A stretch of 64,000 nt of DNA, taken from Asticcacaulis sp. EMRT-3 (GTDB lineage: Bacteria; Pseudomonadota; Alphaproteobacteria; Caulobacterales; Caulobacteraceae). Under the pieces are notes generated by a model that saw only the letters and a program-made list of their open reading frames with translations, ran no database searches and was not told the DNA's origin. The translations under genes were made by a program, and so were the position numbers. The stretch covers positions 1,728,501 to 1,792,500 of the forward strand of contig NZ_JASERT010000001.1 in the NCBI RefSeq assembly GCF_030027245.1, read 5' to 3'. Positions 20,244 through 33,580 of this stretch are shown here, in pieces. Position 1 is the stretch's first letter. Each line of letters starts with the position of its first letter.

Positions 20244-22883
20244 CTATTTCACCGGACAGGTAGCGGCGTCGCCCTCATCCGAGGCCAGCTTGATACTGGA
20301 ATAGCTGATCGACAGGGCCTTACCGGAGCTGAGCGCGAACGGTACGCCCACCTTGTTCATGTCGGTGCCGGCAGCGTGCATACAGTCGAGCGTCATTTTG
20401 AGCGTGGCCCATTGCCCGACCGGTGCGGTCAGCAGCGACGAGACATCGATACCGTGAATGTGCTGCGCGTCTTCGCCCATCGCCAGCATGACCGGCCCGG
20501 CCACCGGCGCATCAAGCCGATAGGTCATGGCGAGCGTCATCTTGCCGCCCATCTGACGACTGAGATCGACCGGCTTGCCGCTGATCATCGCTTCGCCTTC
20601 GCCTGCGCCCGAAAACACCAGCGAACGACCCGCCTCCTGCTTACCGGCATCAACCGCCGACTGCTTGACGAAACCATCCGGGCTGGCAAAGGCGTCGCGG
20701 TCGCCCTTCGTCGCGCCCTTGTCGTCGCTCAGGTTCAGCGTCCACGGCGCTTTCACGCGACCGGCGTCGAAATAGTCATCGACATTGACGACATCGGCAT
20801 CGCTGACGCCGGAATCTTCCGAAAGCTGCGGCACATCGCCAATATCTTCGTAGGTCAGGCCATAACCATAGGCGAACAGAGGATCATAGCCGGGCGTGCC
20901 GACATTGAGCGGGCCCTGATTGCCCTTTTTGGGCCAGGAGAAGGTCAGCTTGCCTTTGAAATCATAGCGCGGCTTGCCATTCTGGTCGCCGATCAGCACA
21001 TCGGCGACGCCGCCGCCTTCCGAACCGGGCAGCCAGGCTTCGACAAAGGCGTCAGAAGCGTTGATATAGGGGTTGGTCCACAAGGGGCGGCCCGACAGAA
21101 AGACCGTCACCACCGGAATACCGGCCGATTTCAGCTTCTGGATCAGTTCGAGATCGGAGGTGTCGCCCTGCTTATAGATCAGGTTCGGACGATCACCCTG
21201 GAATTCGGCATAGGGGTCCTCGCCAATAACCACAATGGCTACGTCCGGCTTGGTGGTGTAGCTGCCATCAACGCTGAGATCGGCGCTGCCGCCCGCCTTT
21301 TCGACCGCTTCCTTGATGCCGCCATAGATGGACTGGCCATTGGGGAAGTCGGCATTGGTATTGCCTGTGCCCTGCCAGGTGATCGTCCAGCCACCGCACT
21401 GCTTGCCAATATTGTCGGCGCCGTCGCCCGCCACGAGGATATGCTGGGTGGGGTTGAGCGGCAGGGTGTGGTTTTCATTCTTGATCAGCACCAGCGATTC
21501 GCGCACCGCCTGCCGCGCCACGGCGCGATGGGCGGGGGAGCCTAAATCTTCCCAATGCCCCGCCAGAGGCCGGGTTTTCGGCGCGCCCTCATCGAACAGA
21601 CCGCCCTTGATCTTGGCGCGTAAGATTCGGCGGACGGCGTCATCGAGACGGCTCATCGGGATGATGCCCGATTTCACCTCGGCCAGTTCGTGGTTATACA
21701 TGCCCTTCCAGCCATCGGGGGCCATGAACATGTCGATCCCGGCATTCATGGCGGCGGGGCAGTCATCATTGCTGCATCCGGGCACCTGGCCCTGCGCATT
21801 CCAGTCGGTAATGGCGAAGCCGTCAAAATGCATACGCTGCTTGAGCGCGCCGGTGATCAGTTCCTTGTTGGCGGTCATCTTCTGGTTATTCCACGACGAG
21901 AAGGACACCATGACCGACAAAACACCCGCCTTGATGGCCGGCGGGTAACCCGCGCCATGAATGCGGGCCAGATCGGCTTCCGACATCTCGGCGTCGCCCT
22001 GATCCTTGCCGCCTTCCGTGCCGCCATCGCCTAAGAAATGCTTGGCCGACGAGATGATATGGCCGGGTTTGATACCGTCCATGCCGCCATTCACGCCTTG
22101 CAGGCCTTCCACCATGCGGCCCGCATAGGCGGCGACATCGGCGGGATTTTCCGAATAGCTTTCATAGGAGCGGCCCCAGCGCTTGTCGCGCACCACGGCC
22201 ACGGTCGGGGCAAAGGTCCAGTCCACGCCCGCCAGCGACATTTCATCGGCGGTGACTTCACCGATCTTCTGCACCAGATCGGGATCGTGGGCCGCGCCCA
22301 GACCGACATTGTGCGGGAAGATGACCGCACCGACCAGATTGGAATGGCCATGCACGGCGTCGATGCCGAACATCAGCGGTATATGCACCTTGGTGGGACG
22401 TGCCGCCGCGCCGCGCCAGTAATCGTCGGCCAGTTGCAGCCATTGGTCGGGCGTGGCGCGCTCATTGCCGCCGGGCGAGGAATTGCCACCGGCCAGAATC
22501 GAGCCAATCGGATATTCGCTGAGGTCTTTCGGCGTGATGAAATTGATGTCGGCCTGAATCGTCTGGCCAACCTTTTCCTCAAGCGTCATCTGCGCCATGA
22601 TCTTGGTGATGCGCGCCTCGGTGACCGGATCGACGATGCCGACTGGGGCCAGTTTCGGCCAGGCGGGATCGACCGGAATCACGGTGGATTTGGCGGCCGG
22701 TTTTTTGCCTGTCTTCTCGATCGTCTTGTGCGCGACCTGGTGCGGTTTCGGATGAACCCTGGCGTCGGCCTGCGGCGCGATCAGCCCCAGGCCCAGCAAA
22801 ACGCCCAGCGCGGCCCCGGCCTTGAGAGCGGACTTCAGACAAGGGAGCGTATAACGGCGCGCGCCGCGATCGGTTTTGGACAT
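20244..22883 (-). CDS. Glycoside hydrolase family 3 beta-glucosidase (ExoP/BglX-like), secreted
   Basis: An 879-residue exported beta-glucosidase or exo-1,4/1,3-beta-glucosidase. After a signal segment (about 20-45, ALGVLLGLGLIAPQADA) come the GH3 N-terminal barrel (about 75-420) and the GH3 C-terminal domain (about 450-690). Key residues are KHFLGDGGT and the nucleophile Asp360 in GFAITDWN. A galactose-binding-like C-terminal domain follows (about 720-879), as in ExoP-type enzymes. It should liberate glucose from cello- or laminari-oligosaccharides. ATG 22883 is preferred over 22922 because AAGGAAA lies upstream. LacI-type operators lie upstream, so it is probably sugar-inducible. Confidence 0.93.
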   Translation of the reverse strand: MSKTDRGARRYTLPCLKSALKAGAALGVLLGLGLIAPQADARVHPKPHQVAHKTIEKTGKKPAAKSTVIPVDPAWPKLAPVGIVDPVTEARITKIMAQMTLEEKVGQTIQADINFITPKDLSEYPIGSILAGGNSSPGGNERATPDQWLQLADDYWRGAAARPTKVHIPLMFGIDAVHGHSNLVGAVIFPHNVGLGAAHDPDLVQKIGEVTADEMSLAGVDWTFAPTVAVVRDKRWGRSYESYSENPADVAAYAGRMVEGLQGVNGGMDGIKPGHIISSAKHFLGDGGTEGGKDQGDAEMSEADLARIHGAGYPPAIKAGVLSVMVSFSSWNNQKMTANKELITGALKQRMHFDGFAITDWNAQGQVPGCSNDDCPAAMNAGIDMFMAPDGWKGMYNHELAEVKSGIIPMSRLDDAVRRILRAKIKGGLFDEGAPKTRPLAGHWEDLGSPAHRAVARQAVRESLVLIKNENHTLPLNPTQHILVAGDGADNIGKQCGGWTITWQGTGNTNADFPNGQSIYGGIKEAVEKAGGSADLSVDGSYTTKPDVAIVVIGEDPYAEFQGDRPNLIYKQGDTSDLELIQKLKSAGIPVVTVFLSGRPLWTNPYINASDAFVEAWLPGSEGGGVADVLIGDQNGKPRYDFKGKLTFSWPKKGNQGPLNVGTPGYDPLFAYGYGLTYEDIGDVPQLSEDSGVSDADVVNVDDYFDAGRVKAPWTLNLSDDKGATKGDRDAFASPDGFVKQSAVDAGKQEAGRSLVFSGAGEGEAMISGKPVDLSRQMGGKMTLAMTYRLDAPVAGPVMLAMGEDAQHIHGIDVSSLLTAPVGQWATLKMTLDCMHAAGTDMNKVGVPFALSSGKALSISYSSIKLASDEGDAATCPVK

Positions 22884-23001
22884 GGGGTTTCCTTGCGTTC
22901 TTCCACAACATTGTTTTTTCACATCTGTAGCACGCAGAGTTCCGATTGGACAGCCGCATATCCCCAGACTTCTCCCGCCTGTGCGACGGGATGACGTGTC
23001 A

Positions 23002-23031
23002 TTTATTGACAGCGCTATCAGCCAGCGTCAA
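23002..23031 (-). promoter_or_regulatory. GH3 gene promoter with LacI-type operator O1
   Basis: On the - strand a TTGACGC -35 box (23031-23025) matches the Caulobacter TTGACGS consensus. The palindrome TGACAGCGCTATCA (23007-23020) occupies the spacer towards an AT-rich -10 zone (23002-23007). A second, weaker operator, O2 (TGGAAGCGCTGTCA, 23046-23059), is just upstream. Repressor bound at O1 would block RNA polymerase. Confidence 0.6.
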
Positions 23032-23103
23032 GCCACACAAAGATATGGAAGCGCTGTCAGACAGGCTTTTTGCCATTCGCTTCCTATTTGCATTATTATT
23101 TAT

Positions 23104-23132
23104 TTGACAGCGTTGTCAGATAGCGCTAAATC
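23104..23132 (+). promoter_or_regulatory. Rightward promoter with LacI-type operator O3
   Basis: TTGACAG (23104-23110), a 14-nt spacer, then GCTAAATC (23125-23132). The latter fits GCTANAWC, the published Caulobacter housekeeping -10, at every position. The operator TGACAGCGTTGTCA (23105-23118) overlaps the -35 box. No protein gene follows on this strand. Confidence 0.6.
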
Positions 23133-23138
23133 ACAATC

Positions 23139-23330
23139 ACCCTGTTTCCTGTTGCGGTTCGCCGTGGCGGGATTGTGTTTAGAACCACATCACAGGGGCC
23201 TGGGTTTCTTTCCCTTTTTCATAACCCTGGCCTTTGGTGGTTTTAAAGCGCCTTCTTAAATGTGGCATTATTTGGAAGGCACTGGCCTTTATACCCGATG
23301 AACCGGTTTCCGGTTTGTCGGGTTTTTTTT
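23139..23330 (+). ncRNA. Candidate sugar-regulated small RNA
   Basis: The inferred transcript of about 190 nt runs from the promoter at 23104-23132 to the terminator at 23293-23330. Three stem-loops are visible. The first is 23197-23206 with 23223-23232 (one mismatch), exposing a 16-nt pyrimidine-rich loop, TCTTTCCCTTTTTCAT, that could pair with purine-rich ribosome-binding sites. The second is GCCTTC/GAAGGC (23250-23255, 23275-23280). The third is the terminator. A 23-codon GTG frame (23175-23246) exists, so a peptide-coding or dual-function RNA is not excluded. The placement and operator imply LacI control. No sequence relative is recognised. Confidence 0.45.
23293..23330 (+). terminator. 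Strong rightward intrinsic terminator
   Basis: A 14-bp stem (23293-23306 with 23310-23323, two G-T wobbles) has a 3-nt loop and is followed by eight T on the + strand. On the - strand no T-run follows, so it is not primarily the lacI terminator. Confidence 0.85.
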
Positions 23331-23338
23331 GCGCGTAT

Positions 23339-24433
23339 TTAGATCTTGCGGTCGGAATCGCGGCGTTGCAGCTCGAACGGCAGAAGTCGGCTGCGCGTAT
23401 GCAGACGCGCGCCCTCGCCGTTTTCGGCACGCGACAGCAAAAGATCAGCGGCGGCATGGGCCAGATCGGTCACCGGCTGGCGGATGGTGGTCAGGTGTGG
23501 CCAGATGATCAGCGAGCCGGGCGTATCGTCAAAACCGACCACCGACACCTGATCGGGCACACGAATGCCGGTCTGCTGGGCATAGGCCATGACGCCGAAC
23601 GCCATTTCGTCATTGCTGGCGAAAACGGCGGTGGGCAGGTCACCGGCATCGCTGAACAGGCTGCGCGCCGCCGCCTGACCTGAGGCGAAGCTGTTATAGC
23701 CCTGCGCCATATGGTTGAGGCGCGGCTTCAGGCTGGCCTCGTTCATGGCGCGGATATAGCCTTCATAGCGGCGGTGCGATGAACCGTGTTCGGGATGGCC
23801 GCGCACAAAGCCGATGTCAGTGTGGCCGCGATCGAGCAGATAGCGCGTCATATCATAGGCGGCCTGCACATCGTCCATTTCGACATAGGCCGAGCGGCCC
23901 GGAAAGGTCGAGGGCGACACGCGCACATAGGGCACACCGGCAGCCTCGACCGCATCGAGTACCTGCCCCATATCGCACAGGGGCGGAGTCAGGATCACGC
24001 CGTCGAGGCGGATGGTGGCCAGAAGGCTGGAAATCGCCCGGCCCAGATCGGGGGCCAGACTGTCCTGCGGCTCAGACAGGACGTGATAACCGCTGTCGCG
24101 GCAGCGGCTGATCACGCCTTCCTGCATGTCGATGACATAGCTCGACGACGGATTATCGTAGAGAAGCCCGATCAGAAACGAGCGCGAACCGGCCAGCGAA
24201 CGCGCCAGCAGATTGGGCCGGTAATGCAAAAGAGCGGCGGCTTCCTTGACCTTAGTGCGCGTTTCCTCACGCACATTGGGTTCATTATTCATGACCCGCG
24301 ACACGGTCTTGATCGACACGCCCGCCAGACGCGCCACATCATTGATGGTGGACACCGCATTGGCGGACGTGGATGCCGGGGCGCGGAAACCCGCCTCGCC
24401 CGTGCGCTGGCCCAAACCCTTGTTCTGCGTCAA
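23339..24433 (-). CDS. LacI family transcriptional regulator of sugar catabolism
   Basis: A 364-residue repressor. The N-terminal 28 residues are an extension. The LacI helix-turn-helix STINDVARLAGVSIKTVSRVMN is next, then the hinge helix region (YRPNLLARSLAG). A periplasmic-binding-like sensor domain runs to the end (LIGLLYDNPSSSYV; VVGFDDTPGSLIIWP). The palindrome upstream of its own gene (24507-24520), in the zwf promoter and near the GH3 gene suggests it is autoregulated and controls the Entner-Doudoroff operon and glucan hydrolase. The inducer could be glucose or an ED intermediate (inference). Proximity is the only evidence that this protein reads those sites. Confidence 0.92.
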   Translation of the reverse strand: MTQNKGLGQRTGEAGFRAPASTSANAVSTINDVARLAGVSIKTVSRVMNNEPNVREETRTKVKEAAALLHYRPNLLARSLAGSRSFLIGLLYDNPSSSYVIDMQEGVISRCRDSGYHVLSEPQDSLAPDLGRAISSLLATIRLDGVILTPPLCDMGQVLDAVEAAGVPYVRVSPSTFPGRSAYVEMDDVQAAYDMTRYLLDRGHTDIGFVRGHPEHGSSHRRYEGYIRAMNEASLKPRLNHMAQGYNSFASGQAAARSLFSDAGDLPTAVFASNDEMAFGVMAYAQQTGIRVPDQVSVVGFDDTPGSLIIWPHLTTIRQPVTDLAHAAADLLLSRAENGEGARLHTRSRLLPFELQRRDSDRKI

Positions 24434-24506: not shown

Positions 24507-24521
24507 TGACAGCTTTGTCAA
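24507..24521 (-). promoter_or_regulatory. LacI-type operator upstream of lacI
   Basis: TGACAGCTTTGTCA (24507-24520) differs from the zwf palindrome in the central bases. On the - strand a perfect TTGACA (24521-24516) overlaps it, a plausible -35 for lacI 74 nt from the start codon. The -10 is not clear. Confidence 0.5.
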
Positions 24522-24602: not shown

Positions 24603-25238
24603 TCAGACCTTTTTGCCAAAGGCCGCCACGGCTTCGGCCGACAGGCGGGTAATCTCGGCCCAGTTGCCCTCGGCCATCGCCCTGGACGGCGCCACCCACG
24701 AACCACCGACGCACAGGACATTATCGAGCGCCAGGAAGTCGGCGGCGTTTTTCACGTCGATGCCGCCGGTCGGGCAGAATTTCGCCTGCGGCAGGGGGCC
24801 ACCAATGCCTTTGAGGTACGGAATACCGCCCGCCGGCACCGCCGGGAAGAATTTCAGATGGGTAAAGCCCCATTCCAGCGCCTTCATCACTTCTGACGAC
24901 GTGGCCACACCGGGCAGCAAAGGCAGGGCGTCCTGCTGCGCCAAAGACTTGGTCAGGCCCGGAGAGACAAGAAATTTCGCACCGGCTTTGGCGGCCTTTT
25001 CGGCGTCCTTCGGCGTCAGAACCGTGCCCGCGCCAACCACGGCGTCGGGGCGTTCCTTGGCGATCAGCTTGATGGCGTCAAGGGCGCAATCGGTGCGCAG
25101 GGTGATTTCCAGCACCTTGATGCCGCCCGCCATCAAGGCGTCGGCCAGAGGCAGGGCCTGATCGAGCGACGGGATGACCATGACCGGCAGAACGGGGCCC
25201 ATAGTCATGAATTTCGGGATGTCGGGATGGGTGCTCAT
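24603..25238 (-). CDS. eda: 2-dehydro-3-deoxyphosphogluconate (KDPG) aldolase
   Basis: Splits KDPG to pyruvate and glyceraldehyde 3-phosphate, the last Entner-Doudoroff step. The 211 residues contain the Glu of KVLEITLRTDCAL (near 43), GAGTVLTPKDAEKA and the Schiff-base Lys in FTHLKFFPA (near 132). The ATG at 25238, with AAGGA upstream, gives normal family length; the longer frame to 25328 is rejected. It follows glk, but 150 nt containing a terminator and another hairpin separate the two, so eda may have partly independent expression. Confidence 0.96.
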   Translation of the reverse strand: MSTHPDIPKFMTMGPVLPVMVIPSLDQALPLADALMAGGIKVLEITLRTDCALDAIKLIAKERPDAVVGAGTVLTPKDAEKAAKAGAKFLVSPGLTKSLAQQDALPLLPGVATSSEVMKALEWGFTHLKFFPAVPAGGIPYLKGIGGPLPQAKFCPTGGIDVKNAADFLALDNVLCVGGSWVAPSRAMAEGNWAEITRLSAEAVAAFGKKV

Positions 25239-25271
25239 GGGCGTTATCCTTGAAGTGAAAATCTCATATTT

Positions 25272-25304
25272 CCAAATCTCAATGCTCTTCGCATTGGGAT
25301 TTGG
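25272..25304 (-). promoter_or_regulatory. Intercistronic hairpin upstream of eda
   Basis: A 14-bp stem (25272-25285 with 25291-25304, one G-T wobble) has a 5-nt loop, without a T-run. It may protect the 5' end of an eda transcript or mark RNA processing. Confidence 0.5.
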
Positions 25305-25369
25305 CAAGGGCGACCGCCCGCCGCGCATATTTGCGCGTGAGCCTGCGCGGCGACTGAGCGCACAGGCAA

Positions 25370-25403
25370 AAAATGCAGATACTGGCGGTTACGCCAGTAT
25401 CTG
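25370..25403 (-). terminator. Intrinsic terminator overlapping the glk stop codon
   Basis: A perfect 12-bp stem (25376-25387 with 25392-25403) has a 4-nt loop that includes the glk stop. On the - strand it is followed by CA and TTTTTT. It should end or attenuate the zwf-pgl-edd-glk transcript before eda. Confidence 0.75.
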
Positions 25404-26495
25404 CTGATCGGTCAGGGCGTTGGCCGAACCCAGCAGGGCGGCGTAAGGGTGGATGATGATGCTCGACGGAATGGCCGCCACCATGCCCGCCATCGGGGCC
25501 TTGGCCTCCATGCGGGCGCGGAAACGCCGTTCGTCGATATGTTTGATCAGGCGCGGCGCGATGCCGCCCGCCATGAACATGCCCGACACCGCGCCGTGCG
25601 CCAGAGCCAGATCGCCGCACACACTGGCCATGATGTCGAGGAAGGCTTCCACCGTATAACGGCAGCCCTGCGCATCATTGCCTTCGAGATGGGTAATCTG
25701 GGCAGGGGTCAGATCCTGCGCCACCTCGCCACGTATCGAGGCGATGGCCTGATAGAGATTGACAAGACCGGGGCCCGACAGCACCATTTCGACCGTGACG
25801 CGGCCATGCTTCTTGCGCAGGAAGCGCAGGATTTCGCTCTCATAATCATTGACGGGGGCGAACGAGATGTGGCCCGATTCCGTTGACAGGCAATAGGGGC
25901 CAAACGGCCCGCCCACCAGCACCGAAGCGCCGAAACCGGTGCCTGCGCCCATGACGGCATGAACATCGCCGAAGCCTTTTTTCACCGGGCCGATGATCTT
26001 GGTGTCTTCGTCGGCCAGATGCGGCAGGCAATAGGCCAGCGCCGCATAATCATTGATCAGCCTGGCCTTTTTAGCACCCGCCGTTTCGGCCAGCTTGTCT
26101 TCGCGCACTTCCCAGTCAAGATTGGTGAACTTGATCGCCCCGTCCTTGACCGGCCCGGCCACCGCCACGCAGGCATAGTCAAAGTCCGGCTTTTCGCCGA
26201 TCTCTTCGAAATAGGCTGTGAGGGCGTCGTAGAAATCCTTGTGATCCGAGGTTTCCAGCGACTTGAAATGGGTCAGGCGCGTCTTGCCCGCTCCTTCATG
26301 GGCCCCGCCTTCATGGCCGCCAGATTCATGGCCGCCCCCCGCCCTGAGGCTGGGGCGTTCAGCCACGGCAAAGCGGGCATTGGTGCCGCCAATATCGCCG
26401 ACCAGACCACGGATGATGCCATCGGAAGAAAGTTCGCCTGTTGTGATTTTACCCGGCGGTGTTTTCACCGACGTGGTTTCGAAATGCGCTGTCAT
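25389..26495 (-). CDS. glk: Glucokinase with His/Gly-rich insertion
   Basis: Phosphorylates glucose with ATP. The 368-residue protein is longer than the common 320-330. The ATP motif GLVGDIGGTNARFAV is at about 31-45, then GAGTGFGASVLVGGPFG and the glucose-binding TESGHISFAP. The extra length is an N-terminal extension of about 28 residues plus an insertion at about 49-70 reading GGGHESGGHEGGAHEGAG, which looks like a small repeat expansion in the loop after the first ATP-binding strand. The start is 4 nt after the edd stop, so it is translationally linked. Confidence 0.95.
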   Translation of the reverse strand: MTAHFETTSVKTPPGKITTGELSSDGIIRGLVGDIGGTNARFAVAERPSLRAGGGHESGGHEGGAHEGAGKTRLTHFKSLETSDHKDFYDALTAYFEEIGEKPDFDYACVAVAGPVKDGAIKFTNLDWEVREDKLAETAGAKKARLINDYAALAYCLPHLADEDTKIIGPVKKGFGDVHAVMGAGTGFGASVLVGGPFGPYCLSTESGHISFAPVNDYESEILRFLRKKHGRVTVEMVLSGPGLVNLYQAIASIRGEVAQDLTPAQITHLEGNDAQGCRYTVEAFLDIMASVCGDLALAHGAVSGMFMAGGIAPRLIKHIDERRFRARMEAKAPMAGMVAAIPSSIIIHPYAALLGSANALTDQQILA

Positions 26496-26499
26496 ATAT

Positions 26500-28314
26500 C
26501 TACCAAAAAACTGCGCCGCCCTGATCGGCAGGGCCTACCTGCCGACGCATGTGCGCAAAAAGTTCCCGTCCCACGCCATCGGCTTCTTGTGGCCGTTTGG
26601 CGTCTGTTCTTTGAGCAAACTCGGCGGCATTTCCGAGGTAGTCTATCGTCCCTTTTTCGCAGTCCACGCGCAACATGTCGCCGTTTTGCAGACGGGCGAT
26701 CGGCCCGCCCTCCATCGCTTCCGGCGTCAGGTGGATGACACCCGCCACCTTACCCGAAGCGCCCGACATGCGGCCATCCGACACCAGGGCTACCTTGCGT
26801 CCGGCATCGAGAATCGACGACAGAGACGGCGTCAGCGAATGCAGTTCGGGCATACCATTGGCTTTTGGCCCCTGGAAGCGCACAACGCAAACAAAATCGC
26901 CTTCCGGCAGTTGCTTCGCCTTGAAGGCCGCCAGAAAATCGTCCTGATCGTCAAATACCACGCACGGCGCCTCGATGATGCGATGCTCCGGCTTGACCGC
27001 CGAAATCTTGACCACAGCATGGCCGAGATTGCCGGTGACTTCGCGCAAACCGCCTTCGGGTGAGAACGGATTGGAGACGGGGCGCAGCACGTTTTCATCG
27101 AGGCTGTGTTCGGGCAGGTCGCGCCAGATCAACTGGCCACCCTCAAGCACAGGCTCTTTGGCGTACAGGCTCAAACCCTTGCCCCAGACGGTTTCGACAT
27201 CCTCATGCAGCAGGCCCGCCGACAGAAGTTCGCGGATAACAAAGCCGATGCCGCCCGCCGCGTGGAAATGGTTCACATCGGCCGAACCATTGGGATAGAC
27301 GCGCGCCAGCGATGGCACCACCTTTGACAGGTCGTTCATATCGGCCCAGGTCAGGATGATGCCCGCCGCCCGCGCCATCGCCGGCAGGTGCAGGGTGTGG
27401 TTGGTGGAACCGCCGGTAGCCAGCAGGCCGACCACGCCATTGACGAAGGCTTTTGCATCGAGCACATCGGCCAGACGGTGCGGGTCTTTGGAATTTTCAG
27501 CCGTTTTGGCGGCGCGCTCAACGGCAGCGGCGGTCAGGGCGTCGCGCAGCGGCGTGGACGGATGGACAAAGGCCGCGCCCGGCACATGCAGCCCCATCAT
27601 CTCCATCAGCATCTGGTTGGAATTGGCCGTGCCATAGAAGGTGCAGGTGCCCGCTGCGTGATAGGAGGCCATTTCGGCGGCCAGAAGCGCGTCGCGTCCG
27701 ACCTCGCCCAGCGCATAGAGGGTGCGCACCTTGGCTTTTTCCGGGTTGGGCAGGCCGGACGACATCGGGCCGGACGGCACGAAGATCACCGGCAGATGGG
27801 CAAACGACAAAGCGCCGATCACCAGACCCGGCACGATCTTGTCGCAAATGCCGAGCAGCAGGGCCGCATCGAAGGCGTCATGGCTGAGTGCAATCGCCGT
27901 GCCCATAGCGATCACATCGCGCGAGAACAGCGACAATTCCATGCCGGGGCGGCCTTGCGTCACGCCGTCGCACATGGCCGGAACGCCACCGGCGACCTGA
28001 GTCGTCGCCCCGACTTTACGGGCAAAGCCGCGCAGCTTTTCGGGATAGTCATGATAGGGCTGGTGGGCCGACAGCATGTCATTATAGGCGGTGACAATGC
28101 CGATATTGGGCACGGAATCGAGCGCCGCCTGAAGCTTTTCATCCGGCGTCGAGGCCGCCACCACATGGGCGTAATTGGCGCAGGACAGCTTCTTGCGGCG
28201 CGGCTCATCGGCCTTGTAGCGGTCGGCGCGCTTCATGAAATCGGCGCGCAGATCTTTCGAGCGTTCGATGATGCGCTGGGTGACTTCGGCGAGGACGGGA
28301 TGCAGTTCAGTCAT
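26500..28314 (-). CDS. edd: Phosphogluconate dehydratase
   Basis: An iron-sulfur dehydratase converting 6-phosphogluconate to KDPG; 604 residues, full length for Edd. The IlvD/Edd hallmarks are present: [20 protein letters not shown] near 117-136, [12 protein letters not shown] near 149-160 and [19 protein letters not shown] near 290-308. Cysteines in MCDG and GICDK lie in the cluster region. It is the third gene of the operon zwf-pgl-edd-glk, 14 nt after pgl. Confidence 0.97.
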
Positions 28315-28328
28315 AATCTGTATTTACC

Positions 28329-29093
28329 TTAGGCCGACCAGACGAAATCGACGGGAACCGGGCACTGGGCGAGGAAGGCGCCAATCGGCGAAACAAACGG
28401 ATCGCTATCGCGCGCCATCGATTTTAGCACATCCAGCTTGGCCTGACCGGTGATGAAGAACACAATCCTGCGACTGGCATTGATGGCGGGCACGGTAAGG
28501 GTGATGCGCGGCAGTTTCGGTTCGATGGAGCCGTCCGTGGCGGCCACCGGCAAAACGAGACGCGGGCCGTCATAGACGGTGGCATTGATCGGATGCTGCG
28601 GGAAGATCGAGGCATAGTGGCCATCCGGCCCCATGCCGAGCAGGGCGAAATCGAACATGACGCCTTTTGGGGGCACATCGCCATCACCCAGATCGCGCAG
28701 AACCGCCTCGGCCTTGTCGGCGCAGGCCTGTTGATCATCGAGATCCTGGATCAGGCTTTCCAGCACCAGACCGGCATCGATGGCGGGCGCAAGCGCTTCG
28801 CGCATCATGCGGGTATTGGAATCGGGGCTGTCGGTCGGCACCCAGCGCTCATCGACCTGGGCCAGGGTCACCTGCGACCAGTCGAGCACGGCTTCGTTCA
28901 GGCGCTCATAGACCGGCTTCGGCGTGGTGCCGCCGCAACCGACCCACACGGCCTGACCGCGCTCGTCCAGCGCCTGTTGCAGCGCTTCGGCGATCTGATC
29001 CGCCACAAAGGCACCGGCTTCGGCCTTGTCGGCAAATTCATGGATACGCACCGACGGCGACAGGGTTTCGATCTTCTGGGCCAACTCAGTCAT
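28329..29093 (-). CDS. pgl: 6-phosphogluconolactonase
   Basis: Hydrolyses 6-phosphogluconolactone to 6-phosphogluconate. The 254 residues include the DevB/Pgl signatures: VWVGCGGTTPKPVYERL near 48-64, QVDERWVPTDSPDSNTRMM near 80-98 and FALLGMGPDGHYASIFP near 148-164. The start codon overlaps the 3' end of zwf by 8 nt, so translation is coupled. It provides the second step of glucose 6-phosphate oxidation. Confidence 0.96.
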   Translation of the reverse strand: MTELAQKIETLSPSVRIHEFADKAEAGAFVADQIAEALQQALDERGQAVWVGCGGTTPKPVYERLNEAVLDWSQVTLAQVDERWVPTDSPDSNTRMMREALAPAIDAGLVLESLIQDLDDQQACADKAEAVLRDLGDGDVPPKGVMFDFALLGMGPDGHYASIFPQHPINATVYDGPRLVLPVAATDGSIEPKLPRITLTVPAINASRRIVFFITGQAKLDVLKSMARDSDPFVSPIGAFLAQCPVPVDFVWSA

Positions 29094-30564
29094 TCCACAT
29101 GCGCCCGTCGCGGTCCATCAGCGTGTAGGCCGATACCGGCCCGACCGTACCCGCCTGATAGGTCTGCGGCTTCATGCCGACCTCTTTCCAGCGGCGGACA
29201 ATGCCATCGACATAGACCCAGGCGGCTTCCACCTCATCGCGGCGCACGAACTGGGCGTTATTGCCGTTGAGCGCATCAAGGATCAGGCGCTCATAGGCGA
29301 TGCGGCGGCGCGGCGGCTTTTCGCCATTCGCGTCGAAAGCGCTGGCGAGCGACAAGGACAGATCGAGCGCCTGCAAATGCATACCTTCGGAGGTCAGGCC
29401 GGGGGCCTTGTTCATCAGGGTCAGCTTGATGTCTTCATCGGGTTGCAGACGGATGATCATGCGGTTGGGGCGCGCCTCGCCGCCAAAGATGGAGTGCGGC
29501 ACGGCCTTGAACTGGATGACGATTTCGGTGGCGCGCGACGGCAGACACTTGCCGGTGCGCAGGTAGAACGGCGTGCCGGCCCAGCGCCAGTTGGCGATCT
29601 CGACCTTGACCGCCACATAGGTTTCGGTATCGGACGGCGAGCCCTTTTCGGCCTCGTAACCGGCGATGCGCTCACCATCGGCAAAGCCCGGCCCGTACTG
29701 GCCGCGCGCCGTCTTGTGCAGCACGTCGTCCATCGGCTTCAGGCTTTTCAGCACCTTGACCTTTTCGTCGCGCAGGGCATCGGACGACAGACCGGCGGGC
29801 GGCTCCATCGCCGTCAGGCAAAGCAGTTGCAGCAGGTGGTTTTGCAGCATGTCGCGCACCGCGCCATACTCATCGTAATAGCCAAGACGATCCGCCGTGC
29901 CGACTGTTTCGGCGATGGTGATCTGGACGTGGTCGATCGACTGGGCGTTCCACAGGGGCTCAAACACCGTATTGCCGAAACGCAACGCGATCAGATTCTG
30001 CACCGTCTCCTTGCCGAGATAGTGGTCGATGCGGAAGATGCGCGACTCTTCAAAAGCGTGGGCAACGGCGTCATTGATCTGTTTCGAGGTTTCGAGATCG
30101 CGGCCAATCGGCTTTTCGATCACCACGCGGTTGGGCGCAGCATTGAGGCCCGCGCGGGCAATATGTTCGCAGATCGGCTTGAACAGGGTCGGCGACACCG
30201 ACAGGAAGAAGACGACATCGAGATGGGCCGTATCGCCCAGTTCGGCCTTGAGTTTCGTGCCCCAGTCATCATGGGCGGCATCGAGCGCCACATGCACGAT
30301 GCGCTTGCGAAAACGCGGCAGTGTGTCCTTTTCGAGATCCTTGCCGATGCGCTTTTTCACCGCCTCACCGATGCGGTCGACGCAGACCTCGGTGCCGCAA
30401 TCTTCGCGCGCCACGGAAATGATACGCAGGTCCTCGCTCAGGAACCCGTCCTGATCGAGCATGGCGAGCGACGGCCACAACATGCGCATGGCCAGATCGC
30501 CGGTGCCACCGACGAGGACAAAAACGGGCTGACGATGGCCAGCGGAAGCAGACGTGTTCGACAT
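29086..30564 (-). CDS. zwf: Glucose-6-phosphate 1-dehydrogenase
   Basis: Oxidises glucose 6-phosphate with NAD(P)+ and opens the Entner-Doudoroff route. The 492 residues carry the nucleotide-binding VFVLVGGTGDLAMRMLWPSL near 14-33 and the substrate/active-site RIDHYLGKETVQNLIALRF near 175-193. The C-terminal domain is normal. As the first gene of the operon it has a promoter about 55 nt upstream covered by the strongest LacI-type palindrome of the window. It is co-directional with pgl, edd and glk. Confidence 0.97.
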   Translation of the reverse strand: MSNTSASAGHRQPVFVLVGGTGDLAMRMLWPSLAMLDQDGFLSEDLRIISVAREDCGTEVCVDRIGEAVKKRIGKDLEKDTLPRFRKRIVHVALDAAHDDWGTKLKAELGDTAHLDVVFFLSVSPTLFKPICEHIARAGLNAAPNRVVIEKPIGRDLETSKQINDAVAHAFEESRIFRIDHYLGKETVQNLIALRFGNTVFEPLWNAQSIDHVQITIAETVGTADRLGYYDEYGAVRDMLQNHLLQLLCLTAMEPPAGLSSDALRDEKVKVLKSLKPMDDVLHKTARGQYGPGFADGERIAGYEAEKGSPSDTETYVAVKVEIANWRWAGTPFYLRTGKCLPSRATEIVIQFKAVPHSIFGGEARPNRMIIRLQPDEDIKLTLMNKAPGLTSEGMHLQALDLSLSLASAFDANGEKPPRRRIAYERLILDALNGNNAQFVRRDEVEAAWVYVDGIVRRWKEVGMKPQTYQAGTVGPVSAYTLMDRDGRMWND

Positions 30565-30615: not shown

Positions 30616-30656
30616 TATGACAGCGCTGTCATATCCCCTGTTTTACAGAAGGTCAA
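30616..30656 (-). promoter_or_regulatory. zwf operon promoter with perfect LacI-type operator
   Basis: On the - strand TTGACC (30656-30651), a 17-nt spacer and TATGAC (30633-30628) form a promoter. The 18-bp perfect palindrome TATGACAGCGCTGTCATA (30616-30633) covers the -10 and the expected transcription start. This is the best operator of the set. Confidence 0.75.
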
Positions 30657-30880: not shown

Positions 30881-33580
30881 TCACCCCGTATTGCGCAGGC
30901 CCGACGCGATGCCGTTCACCGTCAGTTGCATGGCCAGCTTGACCAGCTTGTGCTGGTTGCCGTGGCGGCGGATCGACAGAAGATAGGTCTGCAAGCGGTT
31001 GAGGCTGGCCACCAGCGGACGGGCGCGTTCGATCGAGGCGCGCAGCTTTTCCTGCGTCGATAACAGATAATCGGCGCCACGAATGCGCTTGATCAGGGCC
31101 ACCGTATCCTCGAACTCAAAACGGATGGTGGCATAGATGCGGTCGGCCTCGGTCTGGTCGGTGGCCAGATCGGCATAGGCGCGCGCCAGATCCATATCGC
31201 TGGAGGCCAGCGCCATCTCCATATTGGCGATAAAAACGTCGAAGAAGTCCCAGTTCAGCATCTCGCGCAAGGTGGCGTCCGTGGTGCCGGTTTCGCGCAC
31301 CGCCGCCGCAAAGCCATACCAGCCCGGCAGCATGAAGCGCGTCTGGGTCCACGAAAACACCCACGGGATGGCGCGCAAGTCCTCGATCTTGCCCGACGCC
31401 GTGCGCGAAGCCGGGCGCGAACCGATCTTGAGATCGGAAATCTCACCCACCGGCGTCACCGTGCGGAAAAAGTCGAGAAAGTGCGGATCATCGTAAACAA
31501 GTCCGCGATAGGCCTTGAAGGAGGCGTTGTTGATCGCGTCCATCACCGGCGTGAAGCGTTCTTCCAGCGCCCTGTCGTCTTCGGAAATAATGCCTTCCGT
31601 GCCGATGCCATCGGGCAATGACGACAGGAAGGTGGCGGCGGCGAAGGTGTCGAGCGTCTTGTGGGCGGTGATGGCATTGCCGAACTTGCGCGCAATCATT
31701 TCGCCCTGTTCGGTGACGCGAATCTGGCCGCCGACCGTGCCTTCAGGCTGGGCCAGGATGGCGGCAAAGCTGGGGCCGCCGCCGCGCCCGACCGACCCGC
31801 CGCGACCGTGGAACAGACGCAAGCTTACCCCCGCCTCGCTGCACACGGCTTTGACGGCTTTCGACGCCTTGTGCAGCGACCAGCGCGACGAGGTATAGCC
31901 GCCGTCCTTGTTCGAATCCGAATAGCCGAGCATGACCTCCTGCACGGCAGGTCTGCCCATCAGCGAGCGCACGGCGGGGAGGCCCAGCCAGCGCTTCATG
32001 ATGTCGGGCGCGGCCTCCAGATCGCCGATGGTTTCAAATAGAGGCGACACGCGGATCATGGTGTGCGGCTGCTGACCGCCCAGCACCAGTCCCGACTGCT
32101 TCATCAGCACCAGGGTTTCGAGAATGTCGGACACCGAATCGGCCTTGGAGATCACATAGGCGCCGATGGCTTCGGGGCCATAATGGCGCACGATCCCGGC
32201 GGCGGCATCGACGATCTTCAGTTCGCGGCGCGTCTCATCGGAATAGGGGGCAAACTGCCAGCGCAGGATGCGGTTATTTTTCAGCTCGGCCAGCAGTACC
32301 GAAATCCGCTCCGATTCCGACATGCTGAGATAGTCGATCAGTTCCGGTGAGTGGGTAAACAGTTCGGCGATGACGCGCTCATGCACATCGGAATTCTGGC
32401 GCAGATCGAGCGACAACAGATGGAAACCGCACGAACGCGCCACCTGAATAAGCGAGCGCAGGGTGCGCCCCACCAGCCGCTTGCCGCCATTGGCCACCAG
32501 CGAATCGCGCATAATATTCAGATCGTCGATAAAGGTCTGGATGCGCTCATAGGCCGGGGCGGCTGGCGCCGCCTTGCCCGCGCCGCGCCGCTCATCGATG
32601 CCGAGCAAAACCTGGCGCGTACCGGTCAGGCGCGCCCGGATCCAGGCGATGGCGCGACGATAGGGTTCGTCGGCACGATGCACATCGGTATTGGCAGCCT
32701 TGCGCGCCAGATCGATCAGGGCGTCGCTGACCGGCGTCAGTTCTTCTGACAGGGTCAGTTCGGTATCGAGCTTGCCCAACTGCTCCATATAGAAGCTGAG
32801 AATCAGGCGGGCCTGTTCGCGGAAGGCATAGTTGAGCGTGGTGTCGTCAACATGGGGGTGGCCGTCGCGGTCGCCGCCGATCCATGAGCCGAGCTTGAGC
32901 ACTTTCGGCAGCGGCCCGGTCAGCGGGATTTCACGGCTCCATTCGCCGTACAGCGTCAAAAGCGCCGGCAGGATCGAGCGGCTGACGGCGCTTAAGGTGT
33001 TATTGATCTCGTCCATCACCGTGATACGCTCAGGCCGGTGCAGGCGCGTATTGTAAAGCAGGGCAACGGCGCGGTAGAGGCTGTCTTCGAGCGCGCCCTT
33101 TTCCGACGGTGATCCCGCCTTTTCATAGGCCTGCAAAAGCTGGGTAATGTCGTATTCGCGCGCCACCACACTGGCGCGGCGCATTTCGGTGGGGTGGGCG
33201 GTGAAGACCGGCGAGGCGAGGATGCCATTCAGCGTCGTCTCGATTTCGGCATTATCGAGCCCGTCATGACGCGCCGAGCGGATGGCATTGACCAGTCCGA
33301 TCGGCTGCATGGTGCCGTCGCTGGCCTCAAACGTGTCGATCTGGCCAAGCTGGCCGACATCCTCGGCAATGACGCTGAGCGCCGACAGGCAGGTCATGAT
33401 GCGCGCCGCGTGGGCCGCCTCGGATTCGCTCAGGGACGAGAAATCGAAATCGGCGTTTTGCAAATCCTCGATCTTGGCCATGATGTCGGCGCGGCCGAAA
33501 TCCTGCACGGCTTCATGCAGAAAAGCCTCAAGCATGGCGATGTGCTGGCGAGCGTGATCGAGAACGGCGTCGGTCATCAT
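30881..33580 (-). CDS. ppc: Phosphoenolpyruvate carboxylase
   Basis: Anaplerotic carboxylation of PEP to oxaloacetate; 899 residues, full length. The catalytic His segment VFTAHPTEMRR is near 150-160, the GYSDSNKDGGYTSSRW loop near 557-572 and FHGRGGSVGRGGGP near 597-610. The C-terminus ends RNTG, the invariant PEPC tail. It is a single gene, divergent from a hypothetical across 359 nt. The 3' terminal 38 nt are duplicated 84 nt downstream, but the reading frame is intact. Confidence 0.97.
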   Translation of the reverse strand: MMTDAVLDHARQHIAMLEAFLHEAVQDFGRADIMAKIEDLQNADFDFSSLSESEAAHAARIMTCLSALSVIAEDVGQLGQIDTFEASDGTMQPIGLVNAIRSARHDGLDNAEIETTLNGILASPVFTAHPTEMRRASVVAREYDITQLLQAYEKAGSPSEKGALEDSLYRAVALLYNTRLHRPERITVMDEINNTLSAVSRSILPALLTLYGEWSREIPLTGPLPKVLKLGSWIGGDRDGHPHVDDTTLNYAFREQARLILSFYMEQLGKLDTELTLSEELTPVSDALIDLARKAANTDVHRADEPYRRAIAWIRARLTGTRQVLLGIDERRGAGKAAPAAPAYERIQTFIDDLNIMRDSLVANGGKRLVGRTLRSLIQVARSCGFHLLSLDLRQNSDVHERVIAELFTHSPELIDYLSMSESERISVLLAELKNNRILRWQFAPYSDETRRELKIVDAAAGIVRHYGPEAIGAYVISKADSVSDILETLVLMKQSGLVLGGQQPHTMIRVSPLFETIGDLEAAPDIMKRWLGLPAVRSLMGRPAVQEVMLGYSDSNKDGGYTSSRWSLHKASKAVKAVCSEAGVSLRLFHGRGGSVGRGGGPSFAAILAQPEGTVGGQIRVTEQGEMIARKFGNAITAHKTLDTFAAATFLSSLPDGIGTEGIISEDDRALEERFTPVMDAINNASFKAYRGLVYDDPHFLDFFRTVTPVGEISDLKIGSRPASRTASGKIEDLRAIPWVFSWTQTRFMLPGWYGFAAAVRETGTTDATLREMLNWDFFDVFIANMEMALASSDMDLARAYADLATDQTEADRIYATIRFEFEDTVALIKRIRGADYLLSTQEKLRASIERARPLVASLNRLQTYLLSIRRHGNQHKLVKLAMQLTVNGIASGLRNTG

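Follow-up and report, generated by a model that had tools for sequence, protein, structure and literature searches.

A Conserved Small RNA Gene of Asticcacaulis, Probably Under a LacI-Type Sugar Repressor and Predicted to Target ppdK

Main finding

Positions 23139-23330 (+) of a 64,000-nucleotide stretch of the Asticcacaulis sp. EMRT-3 genome (hereafter the window) almost certainly constitute a gene for a small RNA (sRNA). The best reading is a stand-alone Asticcacaulis gene whose small RNA acts in trans. The fuller proposal, which is held with moderate confidence, is that the RNA would be repressed by the LacI-family regulator GluR, induced by sugar, and would block translation of ppdK and of some receptors. 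The gene and its immediate flanks comprise the following features.

20244..22922 (-): GH3 glycosidase gene, divergent neighbour, from its reading frame and domain
23104..23132 (+): predicted promoter, with TTGACAG at 23104-23110, a 14-nt spacer and GCTAAATC at 23125-23132, read from the sequence
23105..23118: LacI/GluR-type operator TGACAGCGTTGTCA over the -35 element of the sRNA promoter, from pattern search and homologues
23139..23330 (+): predicted sRNA transcript, its start placed from the promoter
23147..23172 (+): 5' hairpin that varies among species, from fold and alignment
23177..23249 (+): hairpin 1, a covarying stem presenting the open loop, from alignment and covariation
23207..23221 (+): loop UCUUUCCCUUUUUCA, predicted seed, 15 nt and pyrimidine-rich, from unpaired probability and alignment
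23250..23280 (+): hairpin 2, a covarying stem with constant UGGCAUU, from alignment and covariation
23293..23330 (+): intrinsic terminator, a 14-pair stem (23293-23323) followed by eight T to 23330, from the sequence
23339..24433 (-): LacI-family repressor gene, gluR by position, following the definition in PMC4052901

Anatomy of the sRNA gene

An earlier note on this DNA had described a rightward promoter, a LacI-type operator over its -35 element and a terminator about 190 nt further on, and each of these was found at the positions listed above. The flanking GH3 and LacI-family genes both point leftward, as the note had said, with the rightward unit between them and its end 9 bp from the gluR stop codon. 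The region 23137-23330 folds at -82.8 kcal/mol, compared with a mean of -54.9 (sd 4.5) for 200 shuffled sequences, none of which folds as well (z -6.26). The hairpin with a 16-nt pyrimidine loop that the note had drawn is present in the minimum-energy fold, and the fold computation gives UCUUUCCCUUUUUCA an unpaired probability of at least 0.99. The gene therefore combines several general attributes of an sRNA: it has its own promoter and an intrinsic terminator, lacks a conserved reading frame, and encodes a conserved structure with compensatory change. With the fold statistics, the conservation and the compensatory changes, the note's central observation of a small RNA gene between GH3 and lacI is confirmed.

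When Rfam covariance models were run against the window, none, Spot 42 included, matched at its gathering score, and only weak, unrelated matches appeared at E <= 10. Assignment to a known RNA family was rejected on this basis. The RNA was also not found among the titles listed in a search of the open-access literature on Asticcacaulis and Caulobacter sRNAs and sugar control.

Distribution and structural conservation

In a sample of 149 genomes of the family (23 of them Asticcacaulis), a DNA comparison with positions 23100-23335 as the query matched 21, all of which belong to Asticcacaulis. Under the strict filters used for counting by genus and family, a covariance model built from 23 sequences detected the RNA in 23 of 25 Asticcacaulis genomes and in none of 224 genomes from other genera of the family. 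Laxer filters added 18 genomes of other genera together with the two Asticcacaulis genomes G104 and G137, the best match having an E-value of 0.157; these matches, all at E >= 0.157, were rejected as not credible. An exact motif scan of genome contigs, which would miss diverged copies, returned 15 stretches, again all from Asticcacaulis.

The two genomes without a detectable copy differ in context. In G137, gluR is kept and its flank in L172 contains neither the sRNA motif nor the operator; the place downstream of gluR that the sRNA and GH3 occupy in other genomes holds a frame (L172, 900-1520) that we take to encode a sodium/solute symporter from its resemblance. In G104, neither a close gluR nor the sRNA was found in an assembly of 370 contigs, and because of this fragmentation the absence may be a gap.

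Among the 23 aligned homologues, the constant parts are the operator, the loop and the second hairpin. The loop UCUUUCCCUUUUUCA is identical in 21 of the 23, and the UGGCAUU of hairpin 2 is kept in all of them. Two-sided compensatory change affects 22 of 35 base pairs, compared with 13.0 +/- 1.7 in shuffled alignments (0/500 as high), while 97.6% of alignment cells pair. In addition, sliding the partners by one to three columns lowers the covariation score from 0.494 to at most 0.126. These patterns in the alignment indicate that this is a structured RNA under selection. Conservation in relatives that keep the gene order, which the earlier note had named as a check, thus extends to structure, operator and terminator, with a less uniform -10 element. 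The note's interpretation, which a lack of such conservation would have refuted, withstood this check and is supported.

ppdK as a predicted target

The earlier note had suggested that the loop could pair with Shine-Dalgarno sequences. For this idea there is now a specific predicted target, ppdK, and some TonB-dependent receptors may form a class of further targets. The complement of the loop, with up to two mismatches, occurs at eight sites in the organism's own genome, compared with one for the reversed pattern. One of the eight is the sRNA itself, and among the other seven only the ppdK site has the start of a frame longer than 60 amino acids within about 65 nt downstream. There, TGAAAAAGGGAAAG, 3 nt before the ppdK ATG and at the ribosome-binding site, can form 14 consecutive pairs with the loop.

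This pairing stands out from that of other genes. With the 15-nt loop, ppdK reaches -19.4, while the best of 930 genes sampled from three species, whose start codons are approximate because the gene finder was a simple script, reaches -18.7. None of 337 sampled genes of the own genome pairs as well as ppdK, which ranks first there, is tied best of 291 in G085 and is second to one of 290 in G109, although one set of these rank counts compares the 15-nt loop with a background computed with 19 nt. The median pairing is -15.3 at the 25 Asticcacaulis ppdK sites and -8.4 in 17 genomes of other genera, with a P value (7e-8) that is not to be taken at face value because the 25 genomes are related. Furthermore, when the loop was shuffled 1000 times, only one of the shuffled versions equalled its pairing with the 25 ppdK sites. 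Pairing is weaker in five genomes of one subclade (-12.0) and in G089 (-10.8), and about 4 kcal/mol is needed to open the ppdK site, which counts against its being a target. On this complementarity, ppdK is a firm prediction among the candidate targets, and its repression through the loop is likely.

A different reading of the same RNA deserves the most weight among the alternatives. It accepts a real, repressor-controlled RNA that acts mainly as a sponge for purine-rich RNA, or through hairpin 2 and its UGGCAUU, in which case the ppdK pairing would be a by-product of a purine-rich ribosome-binding site. Sites of this kind pair with any pyrimidine loop, and hairpin 2 varies no more than the loop does. 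Additionally, G137 and G104 retain ppdK sites like those of their sRNA-bearing relatives, and in Caulobacter the sponge CrfA pairs with anti-Shine-Dalgarno sRNAs (PMC12559287). What this reading does not account for is the best or near-best rank of ppdK among the genes sampled in three species, or the rarity of shuffled loops that perform equally; moreover, one short look through the own-genome sample gave no good target for hairpin 2. We consider it unlikely, and repression of ppdK through the loop is the preferred reading.

TonB-dependent receptors and other candidates

The pattern AGGGAAAG-N(2-8)-ATG gives 196 matches in the 25 genomes and 56 for the reversed control, a bias that is common to any purine-rich ribosome-binding site. 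The 112 loci examined are part of the places behind these matches, and some were picked, before their genes were known, for a spacer recurring between genomes. After frames shorter than 70 amino acids were dropped, 54 rows from the 112 loci remained (L242 and L246 being the same place). Twelve of the 54 open a TonB-dependent receptor gene, in three clusters whose scanned members contain plug or TonB-receptor domains. This share compares with 8 of 930 background genes in a count that includes related genomes and was made without a control seed. An A after AGGGAAAG, which extends the pairing, is found in all 12 receptors and in 11 of the 42 others.

As a class, TonB receptors (eight receptors) pair no better than other genes in the background samples (P 0.11, 0.23 and 0.41), so at most a subset of them would be targets. 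That such a subset exists is possible to likely, and for control of several receptors the chances appear to be even. Further candidates from the same complementarity are pntB, a GH31-type protein and a Gfo/Idh dehydrogenase. The gene pntB (transhydrogenase beta; L110:4303-5721, minus strand, own genome) is the only one among the 930 sampled genes with AGGGAAAG before its ATG.

Operator, regulator and gene neighbourhood

Control of the sRNA is suggested by its operator, which recurs among the following features of the window.

23007..23020: second operator-like site, between the sRNA promoter and GH3, from pattern search
23092..23119 (-): sigma-70-like promoter towards GH3, sharing the sRNA operator, from consensus match only
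24507..24520: operator-like site before gluR, one mismatch, from pattern search
24603..30564 (-): zwf-pgl-edd-glk-eda cluster ending in gluR, from reading frames and domains
30618..30631: operator before zwf, from pattern search

In Caulobacter, GluR is the LacI regulator encoded downstream of zwf-pgl-edd-glk, as described by Ravcheev et al. (2014; PMC4052901), who proposed glucose as its signal and called the effector unknown. The LacI gene next to the sRNA would be gluR by its position at the end of zwf-pgl-edd-glk-eda. Allowing up to two mismatches, the operator pattern gives seven strand matches at four places in the window, where 0.19 would be expected, and the pattern TGACARCGYTRTCA has seven distinct sites in the own genome, including that of zwf and two in the sRNA/GH3 region. 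The sRNA promoter thus contains what appears to be a GluR-regulon operator, its type being judged from the sites before zwf and gluR.

Further own-genome sites of the pattern lie in L036, L037, L038 and L042 (near position 1501), and the frames near those of L036 and L037 presumably encode glycosidases, which they resemble. Within the zwf cluster itself, a strong 13-pair hairpin followed by ATTTTTT (25375-25404, minus strand) stands between glk and eda and may mark the end or attenuation of transcription before eda and gluR. Adjoining zwf is a long gene (30881-33580, minus strand) that we take, from its resemblance, to encode PEP carboxylase, another enzyme of the PEP node.

A LacI-type operator is found upstream of the sRNA in all 23 homologous loci; the TTGACAG element of the promoter lies inside it, and the motif TTGACAGCG(T/C)TGTCA begins 73-113 nt upstream of the conserved core in every case. 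The GH3 gene is divergent from the sRNA in all 23. Judged from coordinates, 22 of the 23 loci have a convergent gluR no more than 3 kb away, and in G080 it lies about 10 kb off and is not convergent. In nine of the 23 loci gluR is displaced by at least 1 kb (1-10 kb), with the RNA unchanged. Because GH3 is constant and gluR is displaced in these nine, the RNA is linked less closely to the gluR 3' end than to the operator and GH3. In combination, the operator and the gene order make it very probable that GluR or a close LacI paralogue controls the sRNA.

Whether GluR itself reads the operator bears on the signal. Another LacI paralogue could do so, such as BglR for beta-glucosides, and the signal would then be cellobiose-like rather than glucose. 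BglR1-3 are close to GluR in Caulobacterales (PMC4052901), and the own genome contains five matches to the GluR protein at E <= 1e-40, itself included. A GH3 glycosidase as the constant divergent neighbour and the distant gluR of G080 would also fit a paralogue. The same operator pattern before zwf, the one-mismatch site before gluR, and the convergent gluR in nearly all loci point instead to GluR, making a paralogue rather improbable.

The position of the sRNA end so near the gluR stop codon, with the two units converging in the window, might also suggest an RNA acting antisense on the 3' end of gluR, or a mere transcription-insulating terminator between convergent genes. Neither role needs base-level constancy of the loop and hairpins, and the RNA persists unchanged where gluR has been displaced, so that this explanation is very improbable. 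Least probable of all is that the transcript serves as a short mRNA encoding a small peptide, or as the leader of a downstream gene: the 23-codon GTG frame of the earlier note exists, and a rightward frame follows the terminator in G133 and G145, but a GTG frame of 22-23 codons occurs at that place in only five of 23 homologues, the window included, and nine loci checked share no common rightward gene, apart from that sister pair. A conserved peptide was rejected, since six of the 23 homologues lack any frame of at least 15 codons, as was a cis-acting leader or riboswitch, given no conserved same-strand downstream gene in the nine loci and the convergent gluR.

With GluR as the favoured regulator, its connection to ppdK can be considered. 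The predicted Caulobacter GluR regulon includes ppdK (PMC4052901). In Asticcacaulis, 23 of 25 genomes have no GluR site before ppdK that outdoes the best of 20 shuffles, and the other two (L082 and L092) have three-mismatch sites that do; the link from GluR to ppdK may therefore run through the sRNA. In other genera, no GluR operator was seen before ppdK in 14 of 17 genomes, the exceptions being L197 (two mismatches) and L198 and L210 (three mismatches each). Because the null result extends to those genera, a switch from direct to sRNA-mediated control of ppdK is possible, not more.

Comparison with known systems

The nearest functional relatives are SisA-D (alphaR8) of Caulobacter crescentus, anti-Shine-Dalgarno sRNAs that repress TonB receptors in carbon-rich conditions and are sponged by CrfA (PMC12559287). 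Like them, the Asticcacaulis sRNA has an anti-Shine-Dalgarno character and a terminator, and repression of TonB receptors is predicted for it too. Membership in alphaR8 was nevertheless rejected, as the 10-nt core UUUCCUCCCU given in PMC12559287 is absent from all 23 homologues. In alphaR8 this core lies in a single-stranded stretch, whereas the predicted seed of the Asticcacaulis sRNA lies in a closed hairpin loop. The typical single-copy member, sisA, is linked to an N-formylglutamate amidohydrolase gene, in contrast to the GH3 and gluR (22/23) neighbours found here. SisA is also described as nearly constitutive and controlled by a sponge (PMC12559287), while transcriptional derepression by sugar through the operator is predicted for the Asticcacaulis sRNA. 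CrfA, which is starvation-induced, sponges SisA through a G/A-rich loop, unlike the pyrimidine-rich loop of this RNA.

The GluR regulon of Caulobacter likewise involves a LacI regulator downstream of zwf-pgl-edd-glk, with ppdK as a predicted member, but its members as listed are protein genes, and the phrase 'small rna' occurs 0 times in the available text of PMC4052901.

The logic of the proposal is also that of Spot 42, which is under CRP-cAMP control; the Asticcacaulis sRNA differs in its LacI-type operator and in having no Rfam match. In enterobacteria and Vibrionaceae, Spot 42 is an sRNA of glucose-replete conditions that pairs with mRNAs of carbon metabolism (PMC3295665).

Proposed circuit and significance

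From the anatomy, the conserved structure, the conserved operator, the conserved loop and the ppdK complementarity, all read from sequence, we infer transcription, GluR binding, a glucose signal, mRNA binding and repression as the steps of a circuit. Without sugar, GluR would occupy the operator over the -35 element and silence the sRNA, and it would keep the divergent GH3 gene and the zwf cluster off as well. Release of GluR by glucose, or by an effector derived from it, would let the sRNA be transcribed up to its own terminator. Hairpin 1 would then present the open loop UCUUUCCCUUUUUCA to the ribosome-binding site of the ppdK mRNA and block its translation, and the same loop may pair with some TonB-dependent receptor mRNAs to the same effect. 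As proposed, sugar entering through the Entner-Doudoroff route would thereby halt gluconeogenesis from pyruvate to PEP and switch off some other uptake systems.

A broader interpretation is tentative and, in our estimate, somewhat more likely to fail than to hold: the sRNA may be a carbon catabolite device of Asticcacaulis' own, by which GluR controls gluconeogenic ppdK, along with a set of TonB receptors, by way of an RNA specific to the genus, a single constant loop masking ribosome-binding sites while the Entner-Doudoroff route is on. It would act in the manner of Spot 42 under a LacI-type repressor, in parallel to SisA/CrfA, and would replace the direct GluR control of ppdK predicted in Caulobacter.

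The sRNA family described here is uncatalogued, and the evidence for its structure is strong; its regulator and its signal are probable, and a single specific target is predicted for it. If the proposal is true, an alphaproteobacterium would use a LacI-type sugar repressor to regulate the PEP-pyruvate node and outer-membrane receptors at the post-transcriptional level. Since Caulobacter uses the constitutive SisA and a starvation-induced sponge, Asticcacaulis and Caulobacter would then offer a direct comparison of how carbon-control circuits evolve.
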